A DNA stretch of 64,000 bases, taken from contig JAOZQY010000007.1 of assembly GCA_029931975.1 (NCBI GenBank), positions 25,399 through 89,398 of the forward strand, read 5' to 3'. This document shows, piece after piece, positions 7,001-41,381 of this stretch (position 1 is its first letter; every line of letters begins with the position of its first letter). The notes below the pieces were generated by a model. That model was not told where the DNA came from, did not search any database, and saw only the letters and a list, made by a program, of their open reading frames with translations. The position numbers and the translations under genes are program-made. The DNA is from Bacteroidales bacterium (GTDB lineage: Bacteria > Bacteroidota > Bacteroidia > Bacteroidales > GCA-2748055).

Positions 7001-8544
7001 AAATTACGGCCAATGCCATTGATAACAACGAGGCCATCTGTTTTAATGATAGCAGGCCCCTGCGGCATCTATCCCTGGCGGGAGGAGAAGATACCATTGC
7101 TCCCGTATATACCTGGCGCCGTTGGCTGGAGGGAGAGACTTCGGCCGATGCAGTGCCCATAGCTGGCTCCGATCAGCAAGCTTTTTTGAGCGGACCTTAT
7201 TCCGATCCGGCTACCCTGGTCTATTATTACGATCGGGTGGTACAGATCGGAGCCTGTCTGGATACTTCCAATGCCATGCAGGTGACTGTAATGCAGTTGC
7301 CCGGCGGGGAGCTGAGCGATATGGACTTTACGGCCTGCGAAAAGGATACGGTTCTGCAGGTGAATCTCAATATGGGAGCTTTGATTGCAGGGCACTATGT
7401 GACTCCCTGGAACATATATCTCAAGGATGGGGTGCATACGGGGATCGGACCCGGATCGCTGGGTCAGGATATGGATACCATGGGTATCGTAATGGATACC
7501 GATGGAGCCGATCACGTAAGCTATAGCTATGAAATAGAATCCATTCGTTACTACCCTGAAGGGGATGACTATGCCTGTATCTCTCCGGCAGCTAACCTTC
7601 CTGATAATCCGGTTGTGGTGGCCCTCTCCCGCAGACCCGATCCGCAAATTCTTGTGGATGGAGCAGCCCGTGATAGTTTCAAGGTTTGCAACACTACTGC
7701 CACCCTGCAGTTTATGCCTGATAACGGAACCCTGAGCAAATGGAGCAATCCGGCCGGATCTGTATTCTTCACCTCTGGTGCGGAACCCAATGAGCAAAAG
7801 GTCTCCATTCCCAACAATCACGATGATTATGGAGAATACCGGATTTTTATAAAGAGTGAGGCGGGCGACTGTGCCGGGCTCGATTCCATTGATTTGCATT
7901 TCTTTGAACAGCCAGAACCCGCTTTTGCAGGCGAGGATACCATGCTCTTCCTGATCAACTCCGTCAAGCTGAAGGCAGATCCTCCAACAGCGGGCACAGG
8001 TACCTGGAGTCTCAGCGTGGGCGGGGGTATTATTGCAGACGAAAATGATCCCAATACCTATGTGTATGAACTGGGTATGGGAGAGGAAAACACCTTCACC
8101 TGGTTGGTGGAAAATGGGGAGGATGAAGGGAAATGTACAAGCAGCAATGATGTTACCATAGTACTGCGCAACGAAGTAAAAAAGTACAATGGTTTCTCGC
8201 CAGGTAATGGCGATATGATGAATGAGTATTACATCATGCAGGGACTGCCTTATGCGGACGAGTTTGAAGTCTCCTTTTTCAATTCCCTGGGGAATATAGT
8301 CCGCACCATTGACCAGGATAATGTGGATGAGCTGGTGATCGATCCTTCATTGATCATCAATGGATTGAGGGATGACGAGATGGTGATCTGGGATGGCCGG
8401 GCAGACAATGGGAACCTGGTTCCTTCAGGTACGTACTATTTTGTAGTCACATTTATTATGCATCAACGGGATTATCAGACCGGAGAGATTACCCGGACCG
8501 ATACTTATGAATTTAAAGATTATGTGGTAGTAGTACGCGAATAG
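4096..8544 (+). CDS. Giant secreted T9SS cargo with glycine-rich region, tandem Ig-like modules and gliding-motility (CHU_C / type B) C-terminal sorting domain
   Basis: TTG start; signal peptide; Gly-rich stretches; repeated ...TVC...Y.W...YRR.V.SG..C.DTS modules; C-term FSPGNGDMMNEYYIMQGLP..WDGRADNGNLVPSGTYYFVV. Confidence 0.85.
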   Translation: MNQKRVIFLFFLLLGFSMRPAFPQSSTPINGVINAYTSVSAILCEEIGNYDSVVVASTAAFAVGDTVMLYGVKGAMIGDSIDFTPGSSPAYAPGEDAQQPGNTGRYAFMIIREVINPGNILVFNVTLDPEFKPMVEGEMVQLIRVPSFRNATVTSAGLTSESWNPIGGTGGVVALFVQGVLELDGDIDVSGRGFHGAPGSSDPEYNGDCSSADTMLYYKHFYPYADLRAGLKGEGTTDTVFHGIGGMRGKASSINGGGGGIGRLAGGGGGSNFSFGARGGAESSYCSPGVSVTGGAGGFALGRPGWYYVNNHAGAGNRIFFGGGGGSGTLIAGASSTDGADGGGIVVIVADTIFGNGHEIRANGANVAGLAVNGAGGGGGGGGCIILDVAGYKSTVDLRAVGGNGGNTIGTDTTGMGGAGGGGIYWLAGDTHPGVNPDFSMGTNGSYGPYNPLGAPGLPGQTNDLVTPLRGFLFNPVPGEFTYCSDMDPDPIVTSEPKGGDGTYTYQWIDSSSTQNYWANIPLAINKDYDPGILTDTIYYRRIVYSLSGTLADTSFLISVNIHPAITDNTIAAADTVCSGNAPILFEPSSTIGGGPTGGSFTYKWQHMPDGDPGFTDISAVTTDPDYQSPGLTTTTEFRRIAYAGVCVDTSNAEEVRVLETITGNDITPYDTICINTVPDQITGPFPSNGDQADIRYQWLSSIDPLVMGSLIPGETGLSYQSPALNQTTYIRRVVLSGNDNACRDTSAFVEILNVPDIFNNTIAASQTVCQEDTPDPLTAGTPGGGYMSQYTYTWISSTDESNWAPATGGGDNDVRSNFNPGAMMDGDTTWYRRVVASGGLELVCKDTSDFIVINVLPSISNNVITPADDLKCQWEMPEVITGSLPGGGATIEGNDPSRSYRWELARVDGEPVSGEWTHPTSGADAQHYTDPDQLVTDVDRWYQRIVVSGPAGQCIDTSNLVHLVVHSEITANAIDNNEAICFNDSRPLRHLSLAGGEDTIAPVYTWRRWLEGETSADAVPIAGSDQQAFLSGPYSDPATLVYYYDRVVQIGACLDTSNAMQVTVMQLPGGELSDMDFTACEKDTVLQVNLNMGALIAGHYVTPWNIYLKDGVHTGIGPGSLGQDMDTMGIVMDTDGADHVSYSYEIESIRYYPEGDDYACISPAANLPDNPVVVALSRRPDPQILVDGAARDSFKVCNTTATLQFMPDNGTLSKWSNPAGSVFFTSGAEPNEQKVSIPNNHDDYGEYRIFIKSEAGDCAGLDSIDLHFFEQPEPAFAGEDTMLFLINSVKLKADPPTAGTGTWSLSVGGGIIADENDPNTYVYELGMGEENTFTWLVENGEDEGKCTSSNDVTIVLRNEVKKYNGFSPGNGDMMNEYYIMQGLPYADEFEVSFFNSLGNIVRTIDQDNVDELVIDPSLIINGLRDDEMVIWDGRADNGNLVPSGTYYFVVTFIMHQRDYQTGEITRTDTYEFKDYVVVVRE

Positions 8545-29710: not shown

Positions 29711-31012
29711 TTGATTATGATTAGTGCCCTTCGCAACATCTGGCAAAGTGAGTTCTTCAGGAACGTGGCCACATTGATCTCCGGAACTACCCTGGCCCAG
29801 GCTTTTTCAGTGTTGATTTATATTCTTCTGAGCCGAATCTATACCGAGGAGGACTTCGGGGTTTTCGGCTTGTATATGAATATTCTGAATATCACGGTGA
29901 TATTCTCCACGGCCAAGTATGAGCTGGCCATTCTGCTTCCAAAAAGTGAACGTGAATCAATTAACCTGCTTGGACTCTCAGGAATGATCAGTGTGTTGGT
30001 CAGCCTGCTCTTGCTGGTGATCGTAATTCCGATGAATGATCAGATATCCAGGTGGCTGGGCAGCGAACAGATCTCCAGATGGCTCTATTTCATACCCCTA
30101 TCCACCCTGATGGTGGGCTGGTTTACCTCTTTTAGGAACTTCTCAAACCGGCAGAAGCGGTACAAATTGATTGCCGGGGCCAATATTGGTCAGAGCATTT
30201 CCAACTCCCTGCTAAAGCTTGGACTGGGTTTGCTTATTGCCGGAGCAGCCGGTCTGATTTTCGGAGTGATCTTTGGACAGGTAGTTGGATTCCTGATCTT
30301 TTTTATGGTGCACTGGCGAATAAACGGATCGAAGGTGAACTGGATGAGCTGGAGTGAGATGAAACGACTGGGGCTTAAGTACAGCCTCTTTCCCAGGTAT
30401 AATATGTGGCAGGGGCTGATCAACAATTTTTCCGGCGCCTTCCCGGTTTTCATATTAAGCTCCTATTTTTCCACAGCTACCGCCGGGCTCTATACCTTTG
30501 GATATATGATTCTGTACAGGCCGGTAAACCTAATGGCTAACGCGTTCTATCAGGTTATGTTTCAGCGATTTGTAGAGAAGAAGCATATCAATAGTTCCAT
30601 TCGTCCGGACGTACTGTTGTTTTTGAAACGCAGCATACAGGTCTTAGCGCTTCCCTTTATTGTTGCGGCAATAGGCTTTCCTGAAATATTCGGATTCATC
30701 TTTGGCGATAAATGGATCGAAGCAGGCAGATATGCTCAGATCTTATTGCCCTGGATCTTTATGACAAGCCTGGTGATGCCCCTTTCATTTATTCCGGACC
30801 TCTATAAAAAGCAGCGGGTAGCCATGATCATTGATGGAGTCAAGCTGGTGGGCAGGCTGACAGGCCTTGCGGTGGGAGTGATTATGGAAAATGTTTATAT
30901 TGGCCTGGCTTTATATAGTGGACTGAGTGCGCTAATTATTGGATATAGCCTGTTCTGGTATCTGCAGCTGGTGAAGGAGAATCCACCTGTTGATGAACAG
31001 GATCAATTATGA
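29711..31012 (+). CDS. Wzx-type polysaccharide flippase / oligosaccharide translocase
   Basis: Multi-TM; ISGTTLAQAFSVLIYILLSRIYTEEDFGVFGLYM N-terminus. Confidence 0.85.
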   Translation: MIMISALRNIWQSEFFRNVATLISGTTLAQAFSVLIYILLSRIYTEEDFGVFGLYMNILNITVIFSTAKYELAILLPKSERESINLLGLSGMISVLVSLLLLVIVIPMNDQISRWLGSEQISRWLYFIPLSTLMVGWFTSFRNFSNRQKRYKLIAGANIGQSISNSLLKLGLGLLIAGAAGLIFGVIFGQVVGFLIFFMVHWRINGSKVNWMSWSEMKRLGLKYSLFPRYNMWQGLINNFSGAFPVFILSSYFSTATAGLYTFGYMILYRPVNLMANAFYQVMFQRFVEKKHINSSIRPDVLLFLKRSIQVLALPFIVAAIGFPEIFGFIFGDKWIEAGRYAQILLPWIFMTSLVMPLSFIPDLYKKQRVAMIIDGVKLVGRLTGLAVGVIMENVYIGLALYSGLSALIIGYSLFWYLQLVKENPPVDEQDQL

Positions 31013-31841
31013 GAAGAGAATGAGTAAGATAGGCAAAGCATTAAAGGCACTCTGGTGGATTGTCCGAAAACCGGTACTTCTGAACAATGTCCTCACTGAT
31101 GAGGATAGCTGGAGGAGCTATGTGGAGAAGAAGTATAAGTTGCCGGGCGGACTCCCCGTGGTGGAGATGGGCCAGCTCATCGCTTCCGATTCCATTGAAC
31201 TGGGGCCCATGACCTTTCTGGACGGAGGATCCCTGCCCACCGATATGATGTTGCTGGCCGGACTGGCTGAAGGAATAGAGAAGTGTGCCTATTTTGAAAT
31301 TGGAACCTGGCGGGGCGAAAGTGTTACTACGGTTGCCTCCAGGGCCCGTAGCTGCCATACGCTCTGTCTCACCGACCAGGAGATGCGCCGGATGGGAATG
31401 CATCCGAGTACCATTGAATCGCACAGGCTCTTTTCAAAAGAGCTGGCGAATGTTACCCATTTAAGTGGCGATTCTAGGAATTTCGATTTCGGACAGCTCA
31501 ACAAGAAATTTGATCTGTTTTTTATTGATGGCGACCACCATTATGATTGTGTCAAAAGCGATACGCAAAATATATTCAAACACCTTATTCATGAGAAGAG
31601 CATAGTAGTGTGGCATGATTATGGCTTCCATCCCGATCAGGTAAGGTATGAGGTAATGGCTGCCATTCTTGACGGGATTGGAGCTGAACGAACAGGCAGG
31701 GTCTACCATGTGGCACATACCAAGTCGGCCATCTTTACAGGAGAAACCATTCCTTCTTTAGCGGCGAATTTTCCTCTTGTGCCGGAAGAGTATTACCTTA
31801 CCGAGATTTCTCGTCACAAAATCCAGGCCTCCCCATCCTGA
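30990..31841 (+). CDS. Class I SAM-dependent methyltransferase (Methyltransf_24-like)
   Basis: YFEIGTWRGESVTTVASRA, FDLFFIDGDHHYDCVKSD. Confidence 0.75.
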   Translation: MMNRINYEKRMSKIGKALKALWWIVRKPVLLNNVLTDEDSWRSYVEKKYKLPGGLPVVEMGQLIASDSIELGPMTFLDGGSLPTDMMLLAGLAEGIEKCAYFEIGTWRGESVTTVASRARSCHTLCLTDQEMRRMGMHPSTIESHRLFSKELANVTHLSGDSRNFDFGQLNKKFDLFFIDGDHHYDCVKSDTQNIFKHLIHEKSIVVWHDYGFHPDQVRYEVMAAILDGIGAERTGRVYHVAHTKSAIFTGETIPSLAANFPLVPEEYYLTEISRHKIQASPS

Positions 31842-31852
31842 TTGCCAGAAGC

Positions 31853-33037
31853 ATGGAAAAAGGAAAACGCATCCTGGTTATTCCCTCCTGGTATCCGCCC
31901 GATGGCGGCTACTTTTTTAAGGAACATAGCGAGGCCATTCAAAAGATGGGTTGGCAGGTGGATGTGCTGGTAAACCGGCTTGTGGGAGTCCGGAAACTGA
32001 TCCAGGCCGGTGTTTCGGCGCTGAGACCATGCAGGGTCGGGGAGGAGAACGGACTGCGTGTGATCCGTTCATCAAGTATGAAGCTTCCCGGTAGTGAAAA
32101 GCAGAACATCCTTAACTGGACAAGACATACCAGGAGGCTTTATAAGAGTTATGAACAGCAGTTCGGCAAGCCCGATTTGATCCTGGCACACAGCGTAACC
32201 TGGGCAGGCTATGCAGCTTTTCTGATTAACAGGGAACATCAGATCCCCTATCTGATTGTGGAGCATCGCAGCTTTTTTGTCTGGAGCACGGAGAAGGCTC
32301 GTCAGATGGTGAAGCCCTTTTATGTGCCATTTTTCAGGAAAGCTTATGGCCATTGCAAAAAACTGGTGCTGGTTTCCTCCAGCCTGAGTAAGGGAATTGA
32401 AGCACTGGTTCCTGATGTAAAGACCAGGAGCATGGTAATCCCAAATATGATACGGGAGGATATGTTCCTGCCTCCTGCGGAGCCCAGGCATACGAAACCC
32501 TTTACCTTTATCTGGGCCGGGAGACTGGAGCATGTGAAAGGGCTGGACCTGCTGCTGGAAGCTGTAAAACTACTTGCTGATCGAACAGAGCGGCCGTTCA
32601 GGATACGATTGGCCGGGAAAGGTTCCCTGAAAGGGGAACTGGAACAGCAGGCCGTGAGGCTTGGAATTGCGGAACGGGTGAAGTTCCTGGGAAGGCTCTC
32701 CAGGGAGGAGATGCAGAAGGAGATGCAGAGGGCCAACTGTAAGGTGCTGCCAAGCCGTTATGAGGCATTTGGGGTGGTTCTTATCGAGGCCATGGCCACC
32801 GGGCTCCCCGTGATTGCTACCCGTTCCGGCGGCCCCGATTCCATTATTAACAATGAGAACGGTTTGCTGGTCGAAGCCGAACACATAGAGGAGCTGGCCG
32901 GGGCCATGGAACAAATGATGTTACATATCGAGGAATATCCTGCAGAGAAGATAAGGGGAAATACCCTGCAACAGTATGGCCATACCAGCGTGATGGAGCA
33001 GTACAATCAGCTCTTTTTTCAAGTGCTCAAGGAATAA
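31853..33037 (+). CDS. Glycosyltransferase family 4
   Basis: IPSWYPPDGGYFFKEHSEAI; FIWAGRLEHVKGLDLLLEAV; LPSRYEAFGVVLIEAMATGLPVIAT. Confidence 0.9.
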   Translation: MEKGKRILVIPSWYPPDGGYFFKEHSEAIQKMGWQVDVLVNRLVGVRKLIQAGVSALRPCRVGEENGLRVIRSSSMKLPGSEKQNILNWTRHTRRLYKSYEQQFGKPDLILAHSVTWAGYAAFLINREHQIPYLIVEHRSFFVWSTEKARQMVKPFYVPFFRKAYGHCKKLVLVSSSLSKGIEALVPDVKTRSMVIPNMIREDMFLPPAEPRHTKPFTFIWAGRLEHVKGLDLLLEAVKLLADRTERPFRIRLAGKGSLKGELEQQAVRLGIAERVKFLGRLSREEMQKEMQRANCKVLPSRYEAFGVVLIEAMATGLPVIATRSGGPDSIINNENGLLVEAEHIEELAGAMEQMMLHIEEYPAEKIRGNTLQQYGHTSVMEQYNQLFFQVLKE

Positions 33038-33091: not shown

Positions 33092-33166
33092 GGTGGATGT
33101 AGCTCAGTTGGTTAGAGTGCTGGATTGTGGTTCCAGAGGTCGCCGGTTCGAACCCGGTCTTCCACC
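33092..33166 (+). tRNA. tRNA-His (anticodon GTG)
   Basis: Cloverleaf GTGGATG/TA/GCTC..GAGT/CTGGATTGTGGTTCCAG/../GCCGGTTCGAACCCGGT/CTTCCAC; G-1 opposite discriminator C73 is the His hallmark. Confidence 0.95.
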
Positions 33167-33173
33167 CAAAAAG

Positions 33174-33206: not shown

Positions 33207-33246
33207 AATTGAAAGACATTCATTAGAATAATTGAGTATCATTTGC

Positions 33247-33254
33247 TAAATTTG
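33247..33254 (+). promoter_or_regulatory. Candidate -7 box (TAAATTTG) for the sigma factor gene
   Basis: TAAATTTG 31 bp upstream of the ATG at 33286; no convincing -33 box. Confidence 0.35.
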
Positions 33255-33285: not shown

Positions 33286-33873
33286 ATGGAAATATTCACT
33301 GATCAACATATTATTGATGGTATCCGGAATCGGGATGATGCTACATTCAAGTATCTTCAGGTGAAGTTCCAGGATAGCATCCGTCTGATGGTTATTGAGA
33401 AGGGAGGAAGTCAGGAAGACGCAAAGGATGTATTTAGCGAGGGCCTAATTGCACTGATTCGCCTTGTGGATCACAAGGATTTCGTTCTGAGTTGCAAACT
33501 GGGAACCCTGGTTTATGCACTTTGTCTTAAGAAGTGGAAACAGCACCTGGAAAAACAGACGGCTGTGCACAATTATCATGTACGTAAACTCGATACCACT
33601 CCGGAATCGGATTTTACAGAGGAGGCTGATCAGCACTTATATCATGAAATTTTCTGGGAAAGTTTTGAGAAACTGGATAAGGTTTGCAAGGACATCCTTG
33701 ACGCCTACCTGAAAGAGACATCTCCAAAGGACATAGCAATCAAGCTGGGATATAGCTATGGTTATGTGCGGAAAAGAAAAAGTATGTGCCATAGTTTTCT
33801 GATGAAGACCATCGAAAACCACCCTACTTTCATAAGGATTAAAAAAACCGAGCTAACTCTGGATATAGAATAA
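33286..33873 (+). CDS. ECF-like sigma-70 family RNA polymerase sigma factor
   Basis: Sigma2-like SQEDAKDVFSEGLIALIRLV; Sigma4-like HTH CKDILDAYLKETSPKDIAIKLGYSYGYVRKRKSMCHSFLMK. Confidence 0.8.
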   Translation: MEIFTDQHIIDGIRNRDDATFKYLQVKFQDSIRLMVIEKGGSQEDAKDVFSEGLIALIRLVDHKDFVLSCKLGTLVYALCLKKWKQHLEKQTAVHNYHVRKLDTTPESDFTEEADQHLYHEIFWESFEKLDKVCKDILDAYLKETSPKDIAIKLGYSYGYVRKRKSMCHSFLMKTIENHPTFIRIKKTELTLDIE

Positions 33874-33887
33874 TATATTCTGAACCA

Positions 33888-34694
33888 ATGAGGAACAAAA
33901 CAGACATACATAGAAGGTTGGCGGATTATATCTACGATGATCTGAGTCCGGAAGAGATCGTGGAGATGGAAACTGAAATATCCCGTGACCCTCAGCTTTC
34001 ACAATCTTACCATTTGAATATGCAGGTAAAGGACTATCTGCAGGCGAAGATTCAACTGGAGGAGATGAAGTCAGATCCCCTCCTGGAGGATGCAGAGAAA
34101 CTGGCAGACATGGCATTTGAACTTGAATCCATGGACGAAGAGGAGCCTGTGACCATCCCCATTGGCCGAAAAAAGAACAGGACCAGAATCCTGGCTTTTA
34201 CAGCTGCAATAGCGGCGAGTGTTACCATTATTATCGCTGTTGGACTTCCATCTTCTATGGATCAGGACCGTTTATTTGATTCCTATTATACGCCCATAGA
34301 GGCCTCTGATTATTCCCAACGCGGACTTGCTGATGATACATACAGCAGTATAGCCCAAGGGATTAACCATTATATGGATGGAAATTACACACAATCCATC
34401 GAGCAGTTTAATACCCTGGTTTCAGATCCTGCCTTTCGCTCGGAGGTAAATTTTTTCACGGGACTCTCTTACCTGGGACTGGGGCAGTATGAGGATGCAC
34501 AAAACAGCCTGGAATTAGTACTTAAGGGGGGGGGCAGGTATCAGCCTGAGGCCCTGTGGTATCTCAGTCTCTGCCATCTGAAAACCGGTGCCTTTGAAAA
34601 AGCATACGCAGTTCTTGGACAGTTGGAGCACTATGATGGAATGTACAGGCAAGACGCTCAATCCCTCCGAAAGAAACTTCGTCGCCTTAAATAA
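33888..34694 (+). CDS. Membrane anti-sigma-like protein with C-terminal TPR region
   Basis: N-terminal LADYIYDDLSPEEIVEMETEISRDPQL (anti-sigma-domain-like), one TM (ILAFTAAIAASVTIIIAVGL), then TPR-like helices; 14 bp after the sigma gene. Confidence 0.65.
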   Translation: MRNKTDIHRRLADYIYDDLSPEEIVEMETEISRDPQLSQSYHLNMQVKDYLQAKIQLEEMKSDPLLEDAEKLADMAFELESMDEEEPVTIPIGRKKNRTRILAFTAAIAASVTIIIAVGLPSSMDQDRLFDSYYTPIEASDYSQRGLADDTYSSIAQGINHYMDGNYTQSIEQFNTLVSDPAFRSEVNFFTGLSYLGLGQYEDAQNSLELVLKGGGRYQPEALWYLSLCHLKTGAFEKAYAVLGQLEHYDGMYRQDAQSLRKKLRRLK

Positions 34695-37417
34695 GCAAAG
34701 ATCACCAACGCCGTAAGAATGGATCCTGCAATAAGGGGCCATGTGCCTTTGCTGCGCAAAGCAACAGAATCTCCGGTAACCTGGAAGGCAGCCCAATAAT
34801 AGGGATGGGTATAAAAGGGGGGATGCTGGTTTATATATTGTCTTTTTGCATTGGAAAGTGCTTTGCCCTTGGACTCTCCACGTTTAATTTCTCCATAAAA
34901 TCCGGTCATCACATCCCTGCTTTTAGAATCTTCAACGGGCCAGAGCGAATGTACCACAGATGCAGCACCGGCCTGTAAAAAACTTCTCGACAGGCTCATG
35001 ATACCTTCTCCACTGCGTAATTCACCTCCTGCGGTTTCGCAACTGCTCAGAACCACCATGGGAGAAGAGATGGACAGGGCATTTATCTCATAATCATGCA
35101 ATCGACTGGCCAGCAAGGGATCAGTTATTGTATCCAGGATGAAATAGGGCGACAAACCAGAATATTCTGTTGCAAGAGAGTGCATGGCAAGGTGAAGGAT
35201 TGAGTTTTCCTGTAATAGATCTACTACTTCCGATTTCTCCAGCGACCTCTGGATGCTGCGACCTTTTACAAGTTTTAATATATCCTGAACTTCTTCTTCT
35301 GCTCCCTTTAGTTTCTCAAAATTAGTTCCAGGCGCCGTGGAAGCTTCAGGTATCCAGGCGGTCAGATTCGGGAAAGGCCTGAGCCGGGTGCGGTTTCGGC
35401 TTATCAGCTGAGAATTATACAGATAGGTGATGTTGTAATCGTATAAAAGATAAGGAATCCCGGCATAGTTAGCAATGGATTCAGCTTCATGATGGCTGAT
35501 CAATGCGTCAAAGGGGATAAACGATAGCATTTCATCAGGAACGATAAGCAGATTTTTGCCAGCGAAGAAGGACTCCACGGGTTGAACAAATTCCTGATAG
35601 ATCCCGAACAGAGCAAGCTTCAGACTGTCAAATCGTTCATTGGTCTCCTTGTAAGGGACAAAGCCATGAAGGTTGTTTTTGATTATTTCCAGGTACTGAT
35701 GGAAGGCAGGATCGATGGGACTCTGGCAGACATGACAATCATTTTTCGATACAACAAAGATGAAGACCTGTTCTGAGTCTGTTGACTTGTTTCCCGTAAA
35801 GAAATATTCTACCAGGGTTTCATTTCGGTTCAGGTTCCGGCGGATCTGATCAAGTGACAGATCGGTCTTTAGCCCTTCGAATTGTCCGATTTGCGGAAAA
35901 TCCCTGCGAAACTGTTCCATGTGCTTATTAAAGGAATCCCTGATTTGGAAGAGCTGTGCCTGCCAGTTTAACAAGCGGGCAGAGTCGGGGTTCATTTCCA
36001 GACGTTCTGTCTGGATCAGATTCGAGAAATGGTCTATTTGCTGCTTTAGTTCAGTGGCGGTTAAGGCATCTGTATCGGAACGGCTTTCGAGGTAGAGCCA
36101 CTCCTTGCTGTTCATTTCAAATATGAGTTCACTGGATTTCCCTTTCACAGCCATAAGGAAAGCCTCTTCTTTGTAAATCTCGCGTCCAGTTATTCTGAAC
36201 ATTTCGAGCTTAAGGCGAATCCCGGTAGCGAAAAGATCCTTTTGTCCGGACGTCAGGTATATCCTGCTTTCGCTTGAAAAGAAGGAATCCTGTATCTTGT
36301 GAAGGACATCGATTGATAGAAGATTGGTGGCAAGAGCAGCCTCCAGGAACTCCAATTTTTTGTCCTTCGTTGTTGAGCTGTTTGAAATGCCTTCCAGTAC
36401 CTTCACTTTTGTGGCAAGAATTTTCAACAATGTAAGGTCATGACTGGAGCTTTCAATGTCAGGATTTGAAAGAAGGTCCTTTCCTTCGAAATCCCGGGAA
36501 ATGGAGTGTGAGGCCAGGTGCAGATAGTCCAGAGCCTCATCAAACTCTTCCTGATCAAGGCTGTGCCTTGCCAGATTTTCATAACAGGCAGCCGTCAGCG
36601 GGTGCACGGAGCCGTAGTTCTGCTTATAGTTCTGCAAGGCTTTTTGCAGGTAGTCCTCACCCTGTTCATCCTGTCCGCCTGCAATCAGAAATTGTCCAAA
36701 ATGGAGGTAAATATTGGCCAGTTCGTAGTAGCTTGAATCATATTCGGAAACCCAACGCTTTATTCCCTTAAGGTAATACCGCCCGGAAAGTTCCGAATCG
36801 CCCAGTATCTGGTAGCAGCGGGCAAGGTTAAAATAAACACTTCCCAGGTAGGGTAGATCGTGCTTCTCCTTGATCTGCTCACAGTCCTTCAAAATCTCCA
36901 GGGCCTTCATATACCTTCCAAGGTGGTAAAGTATAATCCCTTTGTTCAGCAAAAGCGCTGAGTACTTATTGAACGTAGCATCATCCCAGTCAGGCACCAA
37001 GTTCAGCAGCCGGTGGGCCTCGTTTATGTAATGCAGGGCATTGGTATAATCCCCCATATCAGTATGATATAAACCCTGATTGATCTGGATACTGATCCTG
37101 AGCTGAAGTGCACCCGGATCGGTTTCCAACAAGAGATCCTCTGCAAACTGATATTGACGATGCGCCTCATCAGGACGTCCTGTCTCATAGTATACGATTC
37201 CCAGGGCATTATGTACCAGGGCCTGGTTATAAGCGGGCAGATCATATTCTCCCTCCAGAATTTGTTTCAATAATACTTCAGAACGAGGAAAATCACCTGC
37301 AGTCCTGGCCTGAGAATATTCATTGTATAGTATGCGGGCAGAATCTTCAGGATTTTGCGCATAAGATATGGCAATGGCCGTAAAGCCAAAAAGGAGAGAG
37401 ATAAATAGCTTTCTCAA
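34658..37417 (-). CDS. Secreted, C-terminally membrane-anchored TPR-CHAT (caspase-like) protease
   Basis: Signal peptide MRKLFISLLFGFTAIAISYAQ; TPR repeats; CHAT catalytic motifs ILHLAMHSLATEYSGLSPYF (His746) and MVVLSSCETAGGELRSGEGIMSLSRSFLQAGAASVVHSLWPV (Cys793); C-terminal TM and basic tail. Confidence 0.9.
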   Translation of the reverse strand: MRKLFISLLFGFTAIAISYAQNPEDSARILYNEYSQARTAGDFPRSEVLLKQILEGEYDLPAYNQALVHNALGIVYYETGRPDEAHRQYQFAEDLLLETDPGALQLRISIQINQGLYHTDMGDYTNALHYINEAHRLLNLVPDWDDATFNKYSALLLNKGIILYHLGRYMKALEILKDCEQIKEKHDLPYLGSVYFNLARCYQILGDSELSGRYYLKGIKRWVSEYDSSYYELANIYLHFGQFLIAGGQDEQGEDYLQKALQNYKQNYGSVHPLTAACYENLARHSLDQEEFDEALDYLHLASHSISRDFEGKDLLSNPDIESSSHDLTLLKILATKVKVLEGISNSSTTKDKKLEFLEAALATNLLSIDVLHKIQDSFFSSESRIYLTSGQKDLFATGIRLKLEMFRITGREIYKEEAFLMAVKGKSSELIFEMNSKEWLYLESRSDTDALTATELKQQIDHFSNLIQTERLEMNPDSARLLNWQAQLFQIRDSFNKHMEQFRRDFPQIGQFEGLKTDLSLDQIRRNLNRNETLVEYFFTGNKSTDSEQVFIFVVSKNDCHVCQSPIDPAFHQYLEIIKNNLHGFVPYKETNERFDSLKLALFGIYQEFVQPVESFFAGKNLLIVPDEMLSFIPFDALISHHEAESIANYAGIPYLLYDYNITYLYNSQLISRNRTRLRPFPNLTAWIPEASTAPGTNFEKLKGAEEEVQDILKLVKGRSIQRSLEKSEVVDLLQENSILHLAMHSLATEYSGLSPYFILDTITDPLLASRLHDYEINALSISSPMVVLSSCETAGGELRSGEGIMSLSRSFLQAGAASVVHSLWPVEDSKSRDVMTGFYGEIKRGESKGKALSNAKRQYINQHPPFYTHPYYWAAFQVTGDSVALRSKGTWPLIAGSILTALVIFAYLRRRSFFRRD

Positions 37418-37457
37418 AATAATCAGATTTCACTTGGGTCGTAAATGTATTTAAAAA

Positions 37458-37488
37458 AAACACCTGATAAAAGAGAAAGCTCTTATCG
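37458..37488 (-). terminator. Candidate terminator/attenuator between GG peptide and CHAT gene
   Basis: Minus strand GATAAGAG CTTT CTCTTTTATC (2-nt bulge), then AGGTG and T8. Confidence 0.4.
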
Positions 37489-37509
37489 CTTCCATATGTG
37501 TGTTACGGA

Positions 37510-37650
37510 TTATGGCTTCCAGGGATCGGGAGGTGCCGTTTGGCCACCGTTGCCATCACCACCAACCAGGTAATTCATCTTTGTACCTTCAATTTTTTCA
37601 TTTCTGAACTGCTCTGTCAGGTCGTTTTTTGTCATTAATCTCTTTTTCAT
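37510..37650 (-). CDS. 46-aa double-glycine-leader-type small peptide (putative natural-product precursor)
   Basis: Translated by hand: MKKRLMTKNDLTEQFRNEKIEGTKMNYLVGGDGNGGQTAPPDPWKP; AAGGA upstream of ATG; below the size cutoff of the ORF track. Confidence 0.65.
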   Translation of the reverse strand: MKKRLMTKNDLTEQFRNEKIEGTKMNYLVGGDGNGGQTAPPDPWKP

Positions 37651-37673: not shown

Positions 37674-37709
37674 TACCGTTTAATCAGAAAGGACCAGGAA
37701 TTGTTACCC
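37674..37709 (-). repeat. 36-bp promoter-like repeat, copy 1 (upstream of GG peptide)
   Basis: + strand TACCGTTTAATCAGAAAGGACCAGGAATTGTTACCC; 32/36 identical to copy 2 at 38365-38400. Confidence 0.8.
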
Positions 37710-37825: not shown

Positions 37826-38092
37826 TCATAAATAGTCCTTGTTGGAATAGATGCACACAGGGTGTAGGTTGTCAATGTTTTCAACTCCTTCAGGAGCATT
37901 TGGGTCCAAGGCTTCAATGGTCCATCCAAATCTTGAATCTGTCCTTCCGTACTTTGACCACATCATCATTCGTCCTGAATTATCCCAGCGCAATACATTT
38001 GGTGAATAGTCCGGTTTGATCCGGCCTTTTTTCCATACTGCTTCTTTCACGGACTTATCCCAGCATATTTCTTTTATTATCATATCTCTCAT
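37826..38092 (-). CDS. Degenerate HNH-endonuclease-like small protein
   Basis: KEAVWKKGRIKPDYSPNVLRWDNSGRMMMWSKYGRTDSRFGWTIEALDPNAPEGVENIDNLHPV follows the small-HNH layout (VW.KG...P..WR.D.CG....YG...S.YGWEIDHI.P...GG.D...NLQPL), with the DH replaced by EA. Confidence 0.5.
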   Translation of the reverse strand: MRDMIIKEICWDKSVKEAVWKKGRIKPDYSPNVLRWDNSGRMMMWSKYGRTDSRFGWTIEALDPNAPEGVENIDNLHPVCIYSNKDYL

Positions 38093-38098
38093 TTCATG

Positions 38099-38275
38099 TT
38101 AATTTTCTGTATTTGGTTCCAGGTTTTCCCCAATCCTTTCCAGGAGCTCATTCTTAAATCTTTTTAATTCCGGGGTGATCCATATATCCGTATTCATATA
38201 GATTAAAAATTCTTTATCCTTCTGGGATAGAAAAACTATTTTTCTCTTCCCGGTTTCATCCTGCATGCCTCTCAT
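38099..38275 (-). CDS. Small hypothetical protein (58 aa)
   Basis: Start MRGMQDETGKRKIVFLSQ preferred over 38353 because the N-terminal extension lies on an inverted repeat; 6 bp before the HNH-like ORF. Confidence 0.45.
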   Translation of the reverse strand: MRGMQDETGKRKIVFLSQKDKEFLIYMNTDIWITPELKRFKNELLERIGENLEPNTEN

Positions 38276-38364: not shown

Positions 38365-38400
38365 TACTGTTTAATCAGAAAGGCCACGGAATTGTTACCC
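38365..38400 (-). repeat. 36-bp promoter-like repeat, copy 2 (upstream of the small-gene operon)
   Basis: + strand TACTGTTTAATCAGAAAGGCCACGGAATTGTTACCC. Confidence 0.8.
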
Positions 38401-38453: not shown

Positions 38454-38678
38454 TTATAGCTTTCCAGGCTCATCCGGGGATTGGTATTCCAGGATGTCGC
38501 CTGGCTGACAGTCCAGGACCCTGCAAATCGAATCCAGGGTGGAAAGTTTTATGGCTTTTGCTTTTCCTTGCTTTAAGATGGAAAGGTTGGGGGGGGTAAT
38601 TCCGACTGCATTGGACAATTCGTTCAACTTCATTTTTCTTTTGGCAAGCATCACATCCAGATTGATAATTATAGCCAT
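38454..38678 (-). CDS. XRE/Cro-type HTH transcriptional regulator (YozG-like)
   Basis: MAIIINLDVMLAKRKMKLNELSNAVGITPPNLSILKQGKAKAIKLSTLDSICRVLDCQPGDILEY. Confidence 0.9.
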   Translation of the reverse strand: MAIIINLDVMLAKRKMKLNELSNAVGITPPNLSILKQGKAKAIKLSTLDSICRVLDCQPGDILEYQSPDEPGKL

Positions 38679-38690
38679 CTCTTCAAAAAT

Positions 38691-39323
38691 TTAAATTGTA
38701 TAATCAGTCTGCTCCTTTAATTGATAGCCCTCTTTAAAAACAACGGATATAACATAAAATGCAAAGGCCCCCAATAACATCTTATGGTCTGTTTCCATAA
38801 GAATACTTCGGAAAAATTCTTCATTCAAAGGCACATAATTGATGCTGTCTTCCACCAGGTAGTCGGGAATAAAGAACTGAATAGATTGATACAAAAGAAA
38901 ATCGACCACCACCCAGATAAGCAGAATGAGGGCCATTCGCCGTATGCACTTCAGATTCTCAGAGAGAAAAACTGTTTCTCTATTTAACATGGAAATCAGT
39001 GCACTTAATTGTAAGAGGAGAAGAATTATCAGAAATATAAAGCTAACATTTCTGATGGTCTTGAAAATCAATGTGTTTTGCTGGACCTTTTGATATACTT
39101 CCGGATCATTATTGATGATATCTTCATGCAGATAGAAGAAGGTATCGTTATAGATCCTGATGATTGGCCTGTCCAGGCGCAGATCACTTAGTTCTTCAGG
39201 AGAAAAAATAAGACTGTCCGAAAAATTCCATATTTGGGACAGGATGGAGAAGGAAAGGGAGAATACGAGTAGATAAATTGATGCTCTAACTGCTGATAAT
39301 TTGATAGATTTGTTTGCTTTCAT
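38691..39323 (-). CDS. DUF2975-type membrane protein
   Basis: Four predicted TMs; immediately upstream of a YozG-like HTH gene, the usual pairing for this family. Confidence 0.75.
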   Translation of the reverse strand: MKANKSIKLSAVRASIYLLVFSLSFSILSQIWNFSDSLIFSPEELSDLRLDRPIIRIYNDTFFYLHEDIINNDPEVYQKVQQNTLIFKTIRNVSFIFLIILLLLQLSALISMLNRETVFLSENLKCIRRMALILLIWVVVDFLLYQSIQFFIPDYLVEDSINYVPLNEEFFRSILMETDHKMLLGAFAFYVISVVFKEGYQLKEQTDYTI

Positions 39324-39446: not shown

Positions 39447-41381
39447 ATGGTAAAACTGACAAACAGAACGATTCTGGTACTTTTATTAGTGGTGGCGGCA
39501 ATAGTGCGCTTTTATAATTTCGCAGAGATTCCATTCACTCATGATGAGTTCAGTGCACTCTCACGTCTTCACTATGATACCTTTTCCACACTGATCAGGG
39601 AGGGTGTTATGCCTGATGGCCATCCGGCCGGAATCCAGGTCTTTCTGTACTACTGGGTCAGACTCTTTGGCTCAGAAGAGTGGATTGTGAAGCTTCCCTT
39701 TACCATCTTCGGCTTACTCTCTGTTTGGCTGGTATATAAAATTGCAGACAGGTGGTTCAATGAAACCACGGGGCTCTTATCTGCCGCTTTTTTTGCCACC
39801 ATGCAATTTACCGTAATGTACAGTCAGATCGCCCGGCCTTATATCAGCGGACTCTTTTTTAGCCTGCTGATGGTTTATTACTGGAGCAGTATCATTCTAA
39901 CTCCCGGGAAGCATTTTTACAGGAACAGCTTGTTTTTTGTAATCTCCGCCTCTCTTTGTAGCTATAACCACCACTTTAGTCTGCTCTTTGCCGTGCTGGT
40001 TGGAGCCAGTGGATTGTTCCTGGTCGATCGGAAATATATGCTCCGTTACATCATGGCGGGTCTTGCCATATTTGTGCTCTATATCCCCCATTTGAAGATC
40101 TTCTTCTACCAGCTTAGCATGGGGGGTGTGGGAGGATGGCTGGCCGCGCCAGAGAACGATTTTTTTGTCAACTACCTGGGATATATATTTAATTTTTCCA
40201 TCCTTAGTCTGGTCGTAGCACTATCGGTCATGCTCTTTGGGCTTAGCCGGAGAAACCGGCAAGAGCTCAATTACAAATATTATTTGCTCTTTTTTGTTTG
40301 GTTTTTGATCCCCTTGCTGACCGGTTTTTTCTATTCCAGATATGTAAATGCGGTACTGCAATTCTCGGTCTTAATTTTCAGCTTTACTTATCTGCTTTTC
40401 TTGCTGTTCGGACATATCAGGCCCCAAAAACCCATTATCAATCTGCTTCTGGTAATTGCAATACTCTTTGCCAATACCTTTTCACTGGTTTTTACCAGGG
40501 ATCATTATAAGCTGTTCTACCAGTCGCCCTACGAAGCCATGCTGATCGATTACCAGGAGGTTGGTCAGACGGATAGCAGTACCATCTCCATACTGGACAC
40601 CCATCACCGAAATTCGGCCTACTACAGCTCCAGGCTTGGAATAGATACTACCGGATTCAGGTGGTTCGATTCTTTTAAAGATGAGCATGAATTTAAGTGT
40701 TTCCTGGAGAATCAGAGTATGGATCATACAAGACTTTACCTGGGATCTCTCTCATCAATAAATCCTCTTGCGGTTCCCCTCATCCTTGATTATTACCCTA
40801 AAACTGAGTGGAGGAGAGATTATGCCGGAGCCACCTCCTATCTGTTTAGTCAGGAGATTGAGCAGGAGTCCTATTTGATCGGAAAGCTGGATTTTGAATC
40901 GGAGAGTCCAACGCATTGGACTTCCCTGGATCCTGAAAAGTGGAGCGATTCAATCAGTTTCTCGGGTAGTAATTCCTATCGAATGGACAGTGAAACAGAG
41001 TTTGGCCCAACCTTTTCGGCATATCTGGATGATATAGATCCTGGTGAGAATGATTTCATTGAGATATCGGCCAGGGTCAAAGGCAGTTTCAAATCCGGGA
41101 GTCAGCTTCTGGTTTCCTCCCTGGAGTCGAAGGGGGAGGGTGTCTACTGGGGAGGCACCCCCTTTGACAGTTTTGCACCCTGCAGTGACTCCGGCGATCA
41201 CTGGATCACCGTTCATCATGTATTGAAGTTATCAGATATGCACCTGAAGCATCGTAAGCTGCAATTCAAGGCCTATATCTGGAACAGGGGAGGCTCATCT
41301 TTCCTGGTGGATGATTTTCAAATCAAGCTTCGCCCAGGCAATCGGGTCATCTATGGCCTGAATAAGAACTTCAGGGACTAA
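39447..41381 (+). CDS. GT39-type membrane glycosyltransferase with C-terminal beta-sandwich domain
   Basis: FTHDEFSALSRLHYD acidic loop, multi-TM, C-terminal non-membrane LDFESESPTHW...FLVDDFQIKL. Confidence 0.8.
   Translation: MVKLTNRTILVLLLVVAAIVRFYNFAEIPFTHDEFSALSRLHYDTFSTLIREGVMPDGHPAGIQVFLYYWVRLFGSEEWIVKLPFTIFGLLSVWLVYKIADRWFNETTGLLSAAFFATMQFTVMYSQIARPYISGLFFSLLMVYYWSSIILTPGKHFYRNSLFFVISASLCSYNHHFSLLFAVLVGASGLFLVDRKYMLRYIMAGLAIFVLYIPHLKIFFYQLSMGGVGGWLAAPENDFFVNYLGYIFNFSILSLVVALSVMLFGLSRRNRQELNYKYYLLFFVWFLIPLLTGFFYSRYVNAVLQFSVLIFSFTYLLFLLFGHIRPQKPIINLLLVIAILFANTFSLVFTRDHYKLFYQSPYEAMLIDYQEVGQTDSSTISILDTHHRNSAYYSSRLGIDTTGFRWFDSFKDEHEFKCFLENQSMDHTRLYLGSLSSINPLAVPLILDYYPKTEWRRDYAGATSYLFSQEIEQESYLIGKLDFESESPTHWTSLDPEKWSDSISFSGSNSYRMDSETEFGPTFSAYLDDIDPGENDFIEISARVKGSFKSGSQLLVSSLESKGEGVYWGGTPFDSFAPCSDSGDHWITVHHVLKLSDMHLKHRKLQFKAYIWNRGGSSFLVDDFQIKLRPGNRVIYGLNKNFRD

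Follow-up and report, generated by a model that had tools for sequence, protein, structure and literature searches.

DdvA is the anti-sigma factor of the ECF sigma factor DdvS in Myxococcus xanthus (PMC4374960). It is represented by PDB entries 8rot and 8rw5, in which it is described as a transmembrane, CHAT domain-containing anti-sigma factor. In Craspase, a CHAT protease relieves the inhibition of an ECF-like sigma factor (PMC10028731). In the case of ECF54, CHAT and subtilase proteins occur in the gene context, and control by proteolysis has been proposed (review PMC8999054). The sequence-only reading of the locus considered here knew of no characterised function for such neighbours; since the ECF54 context is published and DdvA is solved, the theme is less uncharted than that reading held.

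In Bacteroidetes, a recognisable class I anti-sigma gene adjoins the gene of only 6% of ECF sigma factors (PMC7406223). The locus lies in a stretch of 64,000 nucleotides (the window) from a Bacteroidales genome, and the genome searched was the whole 4.76 Mb assembly of 366 contigs. It combines genes for an ECF-like sigma factor, a transmembrane TPR (TM-TPR) protein, a TPR-CHAT protease and a double-glycine (GG) peptide. No study of such a module was found in a literature search.

Sigma factor, candidate anti-sigma factor and CHAT protease

The sigma gene (33286-33873, plus strand) encodes an ECF-like protein of 195 aa that, as is usual for ECF factors of about 170-200 aa, contains sigma2 and sigma4 domains only. 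By its sequence it is a divergent ECF-like member: the TIGR02937 match (3.6e-9) is under the curated cut-off, although a profile built from 19 members of the family retrieves ECF sigma factors of known structure, with matches over the full length (SigW 1.3e-11; SigH, SigE). Another 11 genomes of the genus have orthologues with 50-82% identity, and no relatives were found in a search of viral proteins. When all sigma paralogues were aligned, the result was too heterogeneous for scanning contigs; a closer set yielded 11 Bacteroidota MAG loci. Inspection of the upstream region revealed a putative promoter (33240-33254, plus strand; catttgcTAAATTTG, with TAnnTTTG at -7), which we take to be of the Bacteroidota housekeeping type. 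Most close orthologues carry a similar TTTGcTAnATTTG ahead of the sigma gene. The GGGTAAC motif described below is absent from this upstream region on inspection. A tRNA-His gene is located at 33093-33167.

The TM-TPR gene (33888-34694, plus strand) begins 14 bp past the sigma gene on the same strand. Its product of 268 aa has a four-helix N-domain predicted to be cytoplasmic, a single transmembrane segment at about 101-119, and an extracytoplasmic TPR domain. In the AlphaFold model (pLDDT 77.6) the helices span residues 2-15, 21-33, 35-61 and 64-82, the transmembrane segment residues 98-117, and the TPR domain residues 150-267. The class I anti-sigma domain is a three-helix bundle with a fourth helix ahead of the transmembrane segment (PMC7406223), and in the model residues 1-82 look like this domain in the number and order of helices. 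The NCBIfam antisigma model gives matches under the cut-off, 0.0021 for the window protein and 2e-5 and 6e-6 for its paralogues. The zinc motif, an optional feature of class I anti-sigma factors, is missing from the N-domain. The fold search with the model retrieved TPR domains, many peptide-bound TPRs being among the nearest folds, and therefore the anti-sigma assignment is based on the helix order and the sequence models. The TM-TPR protein probably holds back the sigma factor at the membrane.

The CHAT gene (34658-37417, minus strand; TTG start, 919 aa) is convergent to these two; its 3' end and that of the TM-TPR gene share 37 bp. The Pfam CHAT domain is recognised with 3.2e-46. Residues H742, H746 and C793 are invariant among 22 homologues, and the protein thus has the His/Cys dyad of the CHAT fold. 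At its N-terminus there is a signal peptide, and at its C-terminus a transmembrane helix followed by a basic (positive) tail. Both CHAT and the TPR half of the candidate anti-sigma factor are predicted to be extracytoplasmic. The best match in the fold search is Csx29 (8eey, 1.4e-13), and DdvA (8rw5) is also retrieved with 2.1e-11; for the CHAT-family profile, the best sequence match in the PDB is DdvA (4.8e-7). The profile of the TPR part matches, among many TPR proteins, the peptide receptor NprR. Scanning with defence-system models gave only a weak match of CHAT to BovA. Matches of the fold search among viral proteins are mainly TPR and other repeat proteins.

The four genes proposed in the sequence-only reading are thus all in place. 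So are the features that it had ascribed to their products: the ECF-like nature of the sigma factor, upheld by the SigW match; the anti-sigma-like N-terminus with a single transmembrane segment and TPRs, consistent with the AlphaFold helix order and the weak NCBIfam matches; and the signal peptide, the C-terminal anchor and the invariant H746/C793 dyad of CHAT.

The GG peptide, its candidate promoter and the candidate exporter

The GG peptide gene (37510-37650, minus strand) encodes 46 aa which, according to the homologue alignment and profile, consist of a 31-aa leader and a 15-aa core DGNGGQTAPPDPWKP. C39 peptidases read GG leaders with hydrophobic residues at -4/-7/-12 (PMC10885120). In 16 homologues the glycines at -2/-1 are present in 100% and the hydrophobic positions -4, -7, -12 and -17 are invariant, so this rule holds for the family of the window peptide. 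No Pfam entry matches the family. The nearest NCBIfam model, TIGR04149 of rSAM-modified GG peptides, was rejected (12.1 bits against a cut-off of 25, E 0.14). The peptide is found at every window-type module where the sequence covers the site, and comparison with the nearest relative (dN 0.11, dS 0.81) indicates purifying selection.

Upstream of the GG peptide there is a unit of two small genes on the minus strand. The first of them encodes a conserved protein of 58 aa (38099-38275) that has no Pfam match. The second (37826-38092) encodes a conserved HNH-like protein of 88 aa whose catalytic histidine is lost; one orthologue has a weak Pfam HNH match (E 0.045), which suggests derivation from an HNH domain. 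Apart from the window, seven close orthologous loci have both genes; in the most distant orthologues (L085, L088) both are absent and the GG peptide is present. Comparison with the nearest relative yielded dN 0.15 and dS 0.73 for the 88-aa gene and dN 0.16 and dS 0.59 for the 58-aa gene, so that dN/dS of all three small genes is about 0.14 to 0.27, the range of purifying selection. Further upstream, a Cro/C1-type HTH gene and a DUF2975 membrane protein gene (38454-39323, minus strand) form an ordinary neighbouring pair. The module is flanked by polysaccharide export, glycosyltransferase and mannosyltransferase-like genes (29711-33037 and 39447-41381).

Two near-identical 36-bp repeats of ECF type, GGGTAACAAT-N13-TGATTAAAC, precede these genes on the minus strand. 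They are putative sigma-dependent promoters, P1 of the two-gene operon (38365-38400) and P2 of the GG peptide (37674-37709). Transcription from P2 probably continues into the CHAT gene. The pattern GGTAACA-N16-18-ATTAAAC has exactly two copies in the genome, P1 and P2, and none in the reversed control. In orthologues, the P2 motif starts 56-58 nt ahead of the GG start codon, in agreement with a promoter that gives a short leader; P1 is conserved at about -970 from CHAT. The shorter pattern GGTAACAATTCC, with one mismatch allowed, occurs at chance level (46 matches versus 42 in controls), and its third exact match is inside a coding gene; specificity requires both parts of the motif in full.

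The motif was compared with the presence of the sigma factor across 61 relatives. It occurs in 10 of the 12 genomes of the genus that contain the window sigma factor versus one of the six that do not. That one exception misses the TGATTAAAC half, and in both sigma-bearing genomes without the motif the contigs stop before the site. Outside the genus the motif frequency equals the control background. GGGTAAC, which stands ahead of module genes with an unvarying spacing, thus goes with the sigma factor; its use as a promoter is putative, and from the motif we strongly infer that the sigma factor drives the GG peptide.

One relative (G015) has four further copies of the motif at unrelated genes; the regulon can therefore extend beyond the module. 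One such copy precedes an operon encoding a TIR_2 (ThsB-like) protein (L147, contig C31, 4096-6332), and the regulon of this relative may include a defence-type gene. Near the distant orthologous module L085 (G017, contig C908) there are three more copies, at 7908, 13001 and 13618; they precede a gene for a 68-aa Cys-rich protein and one with a weak match to T9SS-sorted proteins.

The family profile finds exactly two GG peptides in the genome, one per CHAT/sigma module and none elsewhere; a search with the single sequence had overlooked the paralogue. The latter belongs to a second set of sigma, CHAT and TM-TPR genes located elsewhere in the genome (C36). This module has a different motif, GGGTAACGTTT-N-GGAAT, with spacing equal to that of the window motif. 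In 13 genomes there is a single copy of it and in one more genome there are two; the controls gave none. Eight of the matches lie about 65-80 nt ahead of GG peptides independently found by the profile. The putative promoter of this module reads away from CHAT. In several genomes, a Fur-type regulator and a peroxiredoxin-like gene lie between sigma and CHAT of this module (L038, 4447-5628).

The sequence-only reading described the peptide as associated with the module. Its presence stands, but with P2 ahead of it the peptide looks less like an accessory than like the output of the switch. The module is also larger than the four genes, since the two small genes and the two promoter-like repeats had been overlooked.

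A double-glycine leader next to a co-regulated small operon could also mean a bacteriocin-like weapon deployed under envelope stress, with the two-gene operon providing immunity or a partner. However, the core is short, acidic or proline-rich and, among modules of one type, well conserved, in contrast to toxins, which diverge fast. In the C36 module, moreover, the peptide occurs but the small operon is missing. We find this explanation distinctly unlikely.

The only C39 peptidase of the genome is the C39 peptidase-ABC exporter encoded in the operon of a third sigma/TM-TPR pair (C177), where it takes the place of CHAT. The two-part GGTAAC motif was not found at operons of this type in the motif search. 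As judged from the sequence, the GG peptide is most likely exported by this transporter. In L039 (6371-8952), the exporter gene is followed by genes of eIF1/YciH-like and ankyrin-repeat proteins, and the trio is conserved in relatives.

The mature peptide might in turn activate its own switch by binding the outward TPRs of the anti-sigma factor, of CHAT, or of both. Such autoinduction would agree with the occurrence of one peptide per CHAT module and none elsewhere, with the short cores (13-22 aa in homologues), with outward TPRs whose relatives include peptide-bound domains and NprR, and with the single C39 exporter under a sister regulator. On the other hand, the TPR matches are generic and distant CHAT modules have no GG peptide. 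On its own we consider autoinduction unlikely; it is compatible with the explanation preferred below, and both can be true together.

Conservation of the module and the role of CHAT

Within the genus, the order sigma, TM-TPR, convergent CHAT is kept down to 29-50% identity. At the level of the phylum, 118 Bacteroidota genomes were sampled; 40 of them carry the sigma family, and 40 loci were fetched. The TM-TPR gene adjoins sigma in 21 of the 40 loci. CHAT is found within 5 kb in 14 of these 21 versus none of the 19 loci without an adjoining TM-TPR gene, the chance expectation being about 0.3 if four CHAT genes are assumed to be scattered in 4.76 Mb. This is the co-conservation from genus to phylum that the sequence-only reading had asked for, and the gene arrangement and its conservation can be considered established. 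Of its proposal of a protease-controlled sigma factor, the arrangement is thereby well supported, and cleavage of the anti-sigma factor by CHAT is the conjectural part.

Some upstream genes are also common to the closest relatives, as would be expected if the genes were chance neighbours conserved only through close kinship. However, the module persists across the phylum while its neighbours change, and matching promoter motifs are found at different genomic places. Chance neighbourhood is extremely improbable.

The pairing with CHAT is not obligatory. Seven of the 21 sigma/TM-TPR loci have no CHAT within 5 kb, and the sister operon C177 has the exporter and no CHAT; thus CHAT is not required beside every sigma/TM-TPR pair, and it can serve as the release step for all pairs only if it acts on anti-sigma factors encoded elsewhere. 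Several distant Bacteroidota CHAT operons start with GGGTAACAAT at equal spacing and with a lineage-specific -10 box. The gene directly upstream of CHAT varies, being a GG peptide, a subtilase, a PKD protein or small secreted proteins, and this partner could be the CHAT substrate. In two distant loci it encodes a secreted subtilase (L182, 7075-8376, by Pfam S8; L186, 9893-11206, by sequence resemblance). In another (L177, 9772-16141) two CHAT genes stand in tandem. Each of them has a separate small secreted partner as well as a separate promoter-like repeat, GGGTAACATT, and the two repeats are nearly identical.

Since the GG peptide and probably CHAT look like sigma targets, CHAT may be an output of the circuit, an activator, or both. 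One explanation is that the sigma/TM-TPR pair does the sensing, another protease cuts the anti-sigma factor, and CHAT, made together with its partner from the output operon, is an effector that processes this partner or a target outside. The motif ahead of the CHAT operons of both the window and distant genomes, the constancy of CHAT next to a variable partner and the pairs without CHAT all point this way. However, CHAT tracks the sigma type throughout the phylum, the nearest solved relative of its domain is part of an anti-sigma factor, and the C36 promoter drives the peptide away from CHAT. We take the effector role seriously but place it on the unlikely side.

Proposed mechanism and comparison with known systems

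What the sequence shows is which genes make up the module and that they are conserved, the topology of their products, the catalytic residues of CHAT, the signature of the GG leader, the promoter-like repeats and the single exporter. The explanation that in our opinion best accounts for these features is a dedicated Bacteroidota ECF switch with CHAT-linked release of the sigma factor and the GG peptide as output; on balance we hold it to be probable. The sigma factor would be made from the housekeeping promoter, and the TM-TPR anti-sigma factor would keep it at the inner membrane. The outward TPR domain of this anti-sigma factor and the membrane-anchored periplasmic TPR-CHAT protein would jointly sense a signal and bring about release: when the signal arrives, CHAT would cleave the anti-sigma factor or trigger its cleavage, setting the sigma factor free. 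The free sigma factor would use the two promoters and turn on the GG peptide and the two-gene operon; as CHAT is probably on the GG-peptide transcript, this would create positive feedback. The peptide would be cut after GG and exported, most likely by the transporter of the C177 operon. Here binding of the sigma factor, cleavage of the anti-sigma factor, promoter use and the export route are what we infer. Since the promoter and target genes are named, the circuit is directly testable.

A more elaborate possibility is that of one-sigma-one-peptide circuits, in which each module has its own diverged promoter and GG peptide, the exporter, located with a sister sigma factor, is shared, the peptide feeds back on the TPRs and CHAT frees the sigma factor. 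This combination is slightly more doubtful than autoinduction as such. If true, it would mean that Gram-negative bacteria can signal with peptides by way of an ECF sigma factor.

Proteolytic control of a membrane anti-sigma factor from outside, as proposed here, is known for RseA/DegS and RsiW. In the window, however, the first protease would be the caspase-like CHAT, with no relation to DegS or PrsW. The GG peptide shares with C39-exported peptides the glycines at -2/-1 and the hydrophobic residues at -4/-7/-12, whereas its candidate exporter is encoded in another operon.

ECF54 is described without an anti-sigma factor, with the model in Geodermatophilus; in the window an anti-sigma-like gene adjoins the sigma gene. 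The subtilase genes ahead of CHAT in L182 and L186 recall the ECF54 context of CHAT and subtilase.

The type III-E Craspase (Csx29, Csx30, CASP-sigma; PMC10028731) and the window module have in common a TPR-CHAT protease, a sigma inhibitor (a candidate one in the window), an ECF-like sigma factor and a sigma motif at the locus of the sigma factor itself. However, the CHAT protein of the window is secreted and membrane-anchored, and the candidate inhibitor is a TM-TPR protein, not Csx30. Neither Cas7-11 nor any other CRISPR gene was detected among the neighbours scanned with Pfam and NCBIfam. Thus the module would work like Craspase but is not a member of that type, in line with the sequence-only reading, which had considered it CRISPR-independent and topologically distinct.

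DdvA/DdvS and the window both have an ECF sigma factor whose transmembrane anti-sigma factor, a candidate one in the window, is associated with a CHAT domain. This domain belongs to the anti-sigma polypeptide itself in DdvA, whereas in the window and the orthologues examined there are two separate genes. That the same two parts are one protein in DdvA and two here is a gene-fusion argument for their joint function. With these precedents, it is plausible by analogy that CHAT cuts the anti-sigma factor to free the sigma factor. The window module, unlike DdvA, has a GG peptide and dedicated putative promoters; we know of no GG peptide for DdvA.

A divergent TM-TPR anti-sigma factor accompanied by a secreted CHAT protease is thus a widespread candidate for ECF control in Bacteroidota. 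It would join DdvA, the ECF54 context and Craspase in one theme, in which CHAT enzymes control the release of ECF sigma factors, and would add to this theme a secreted peptide as the likely output.
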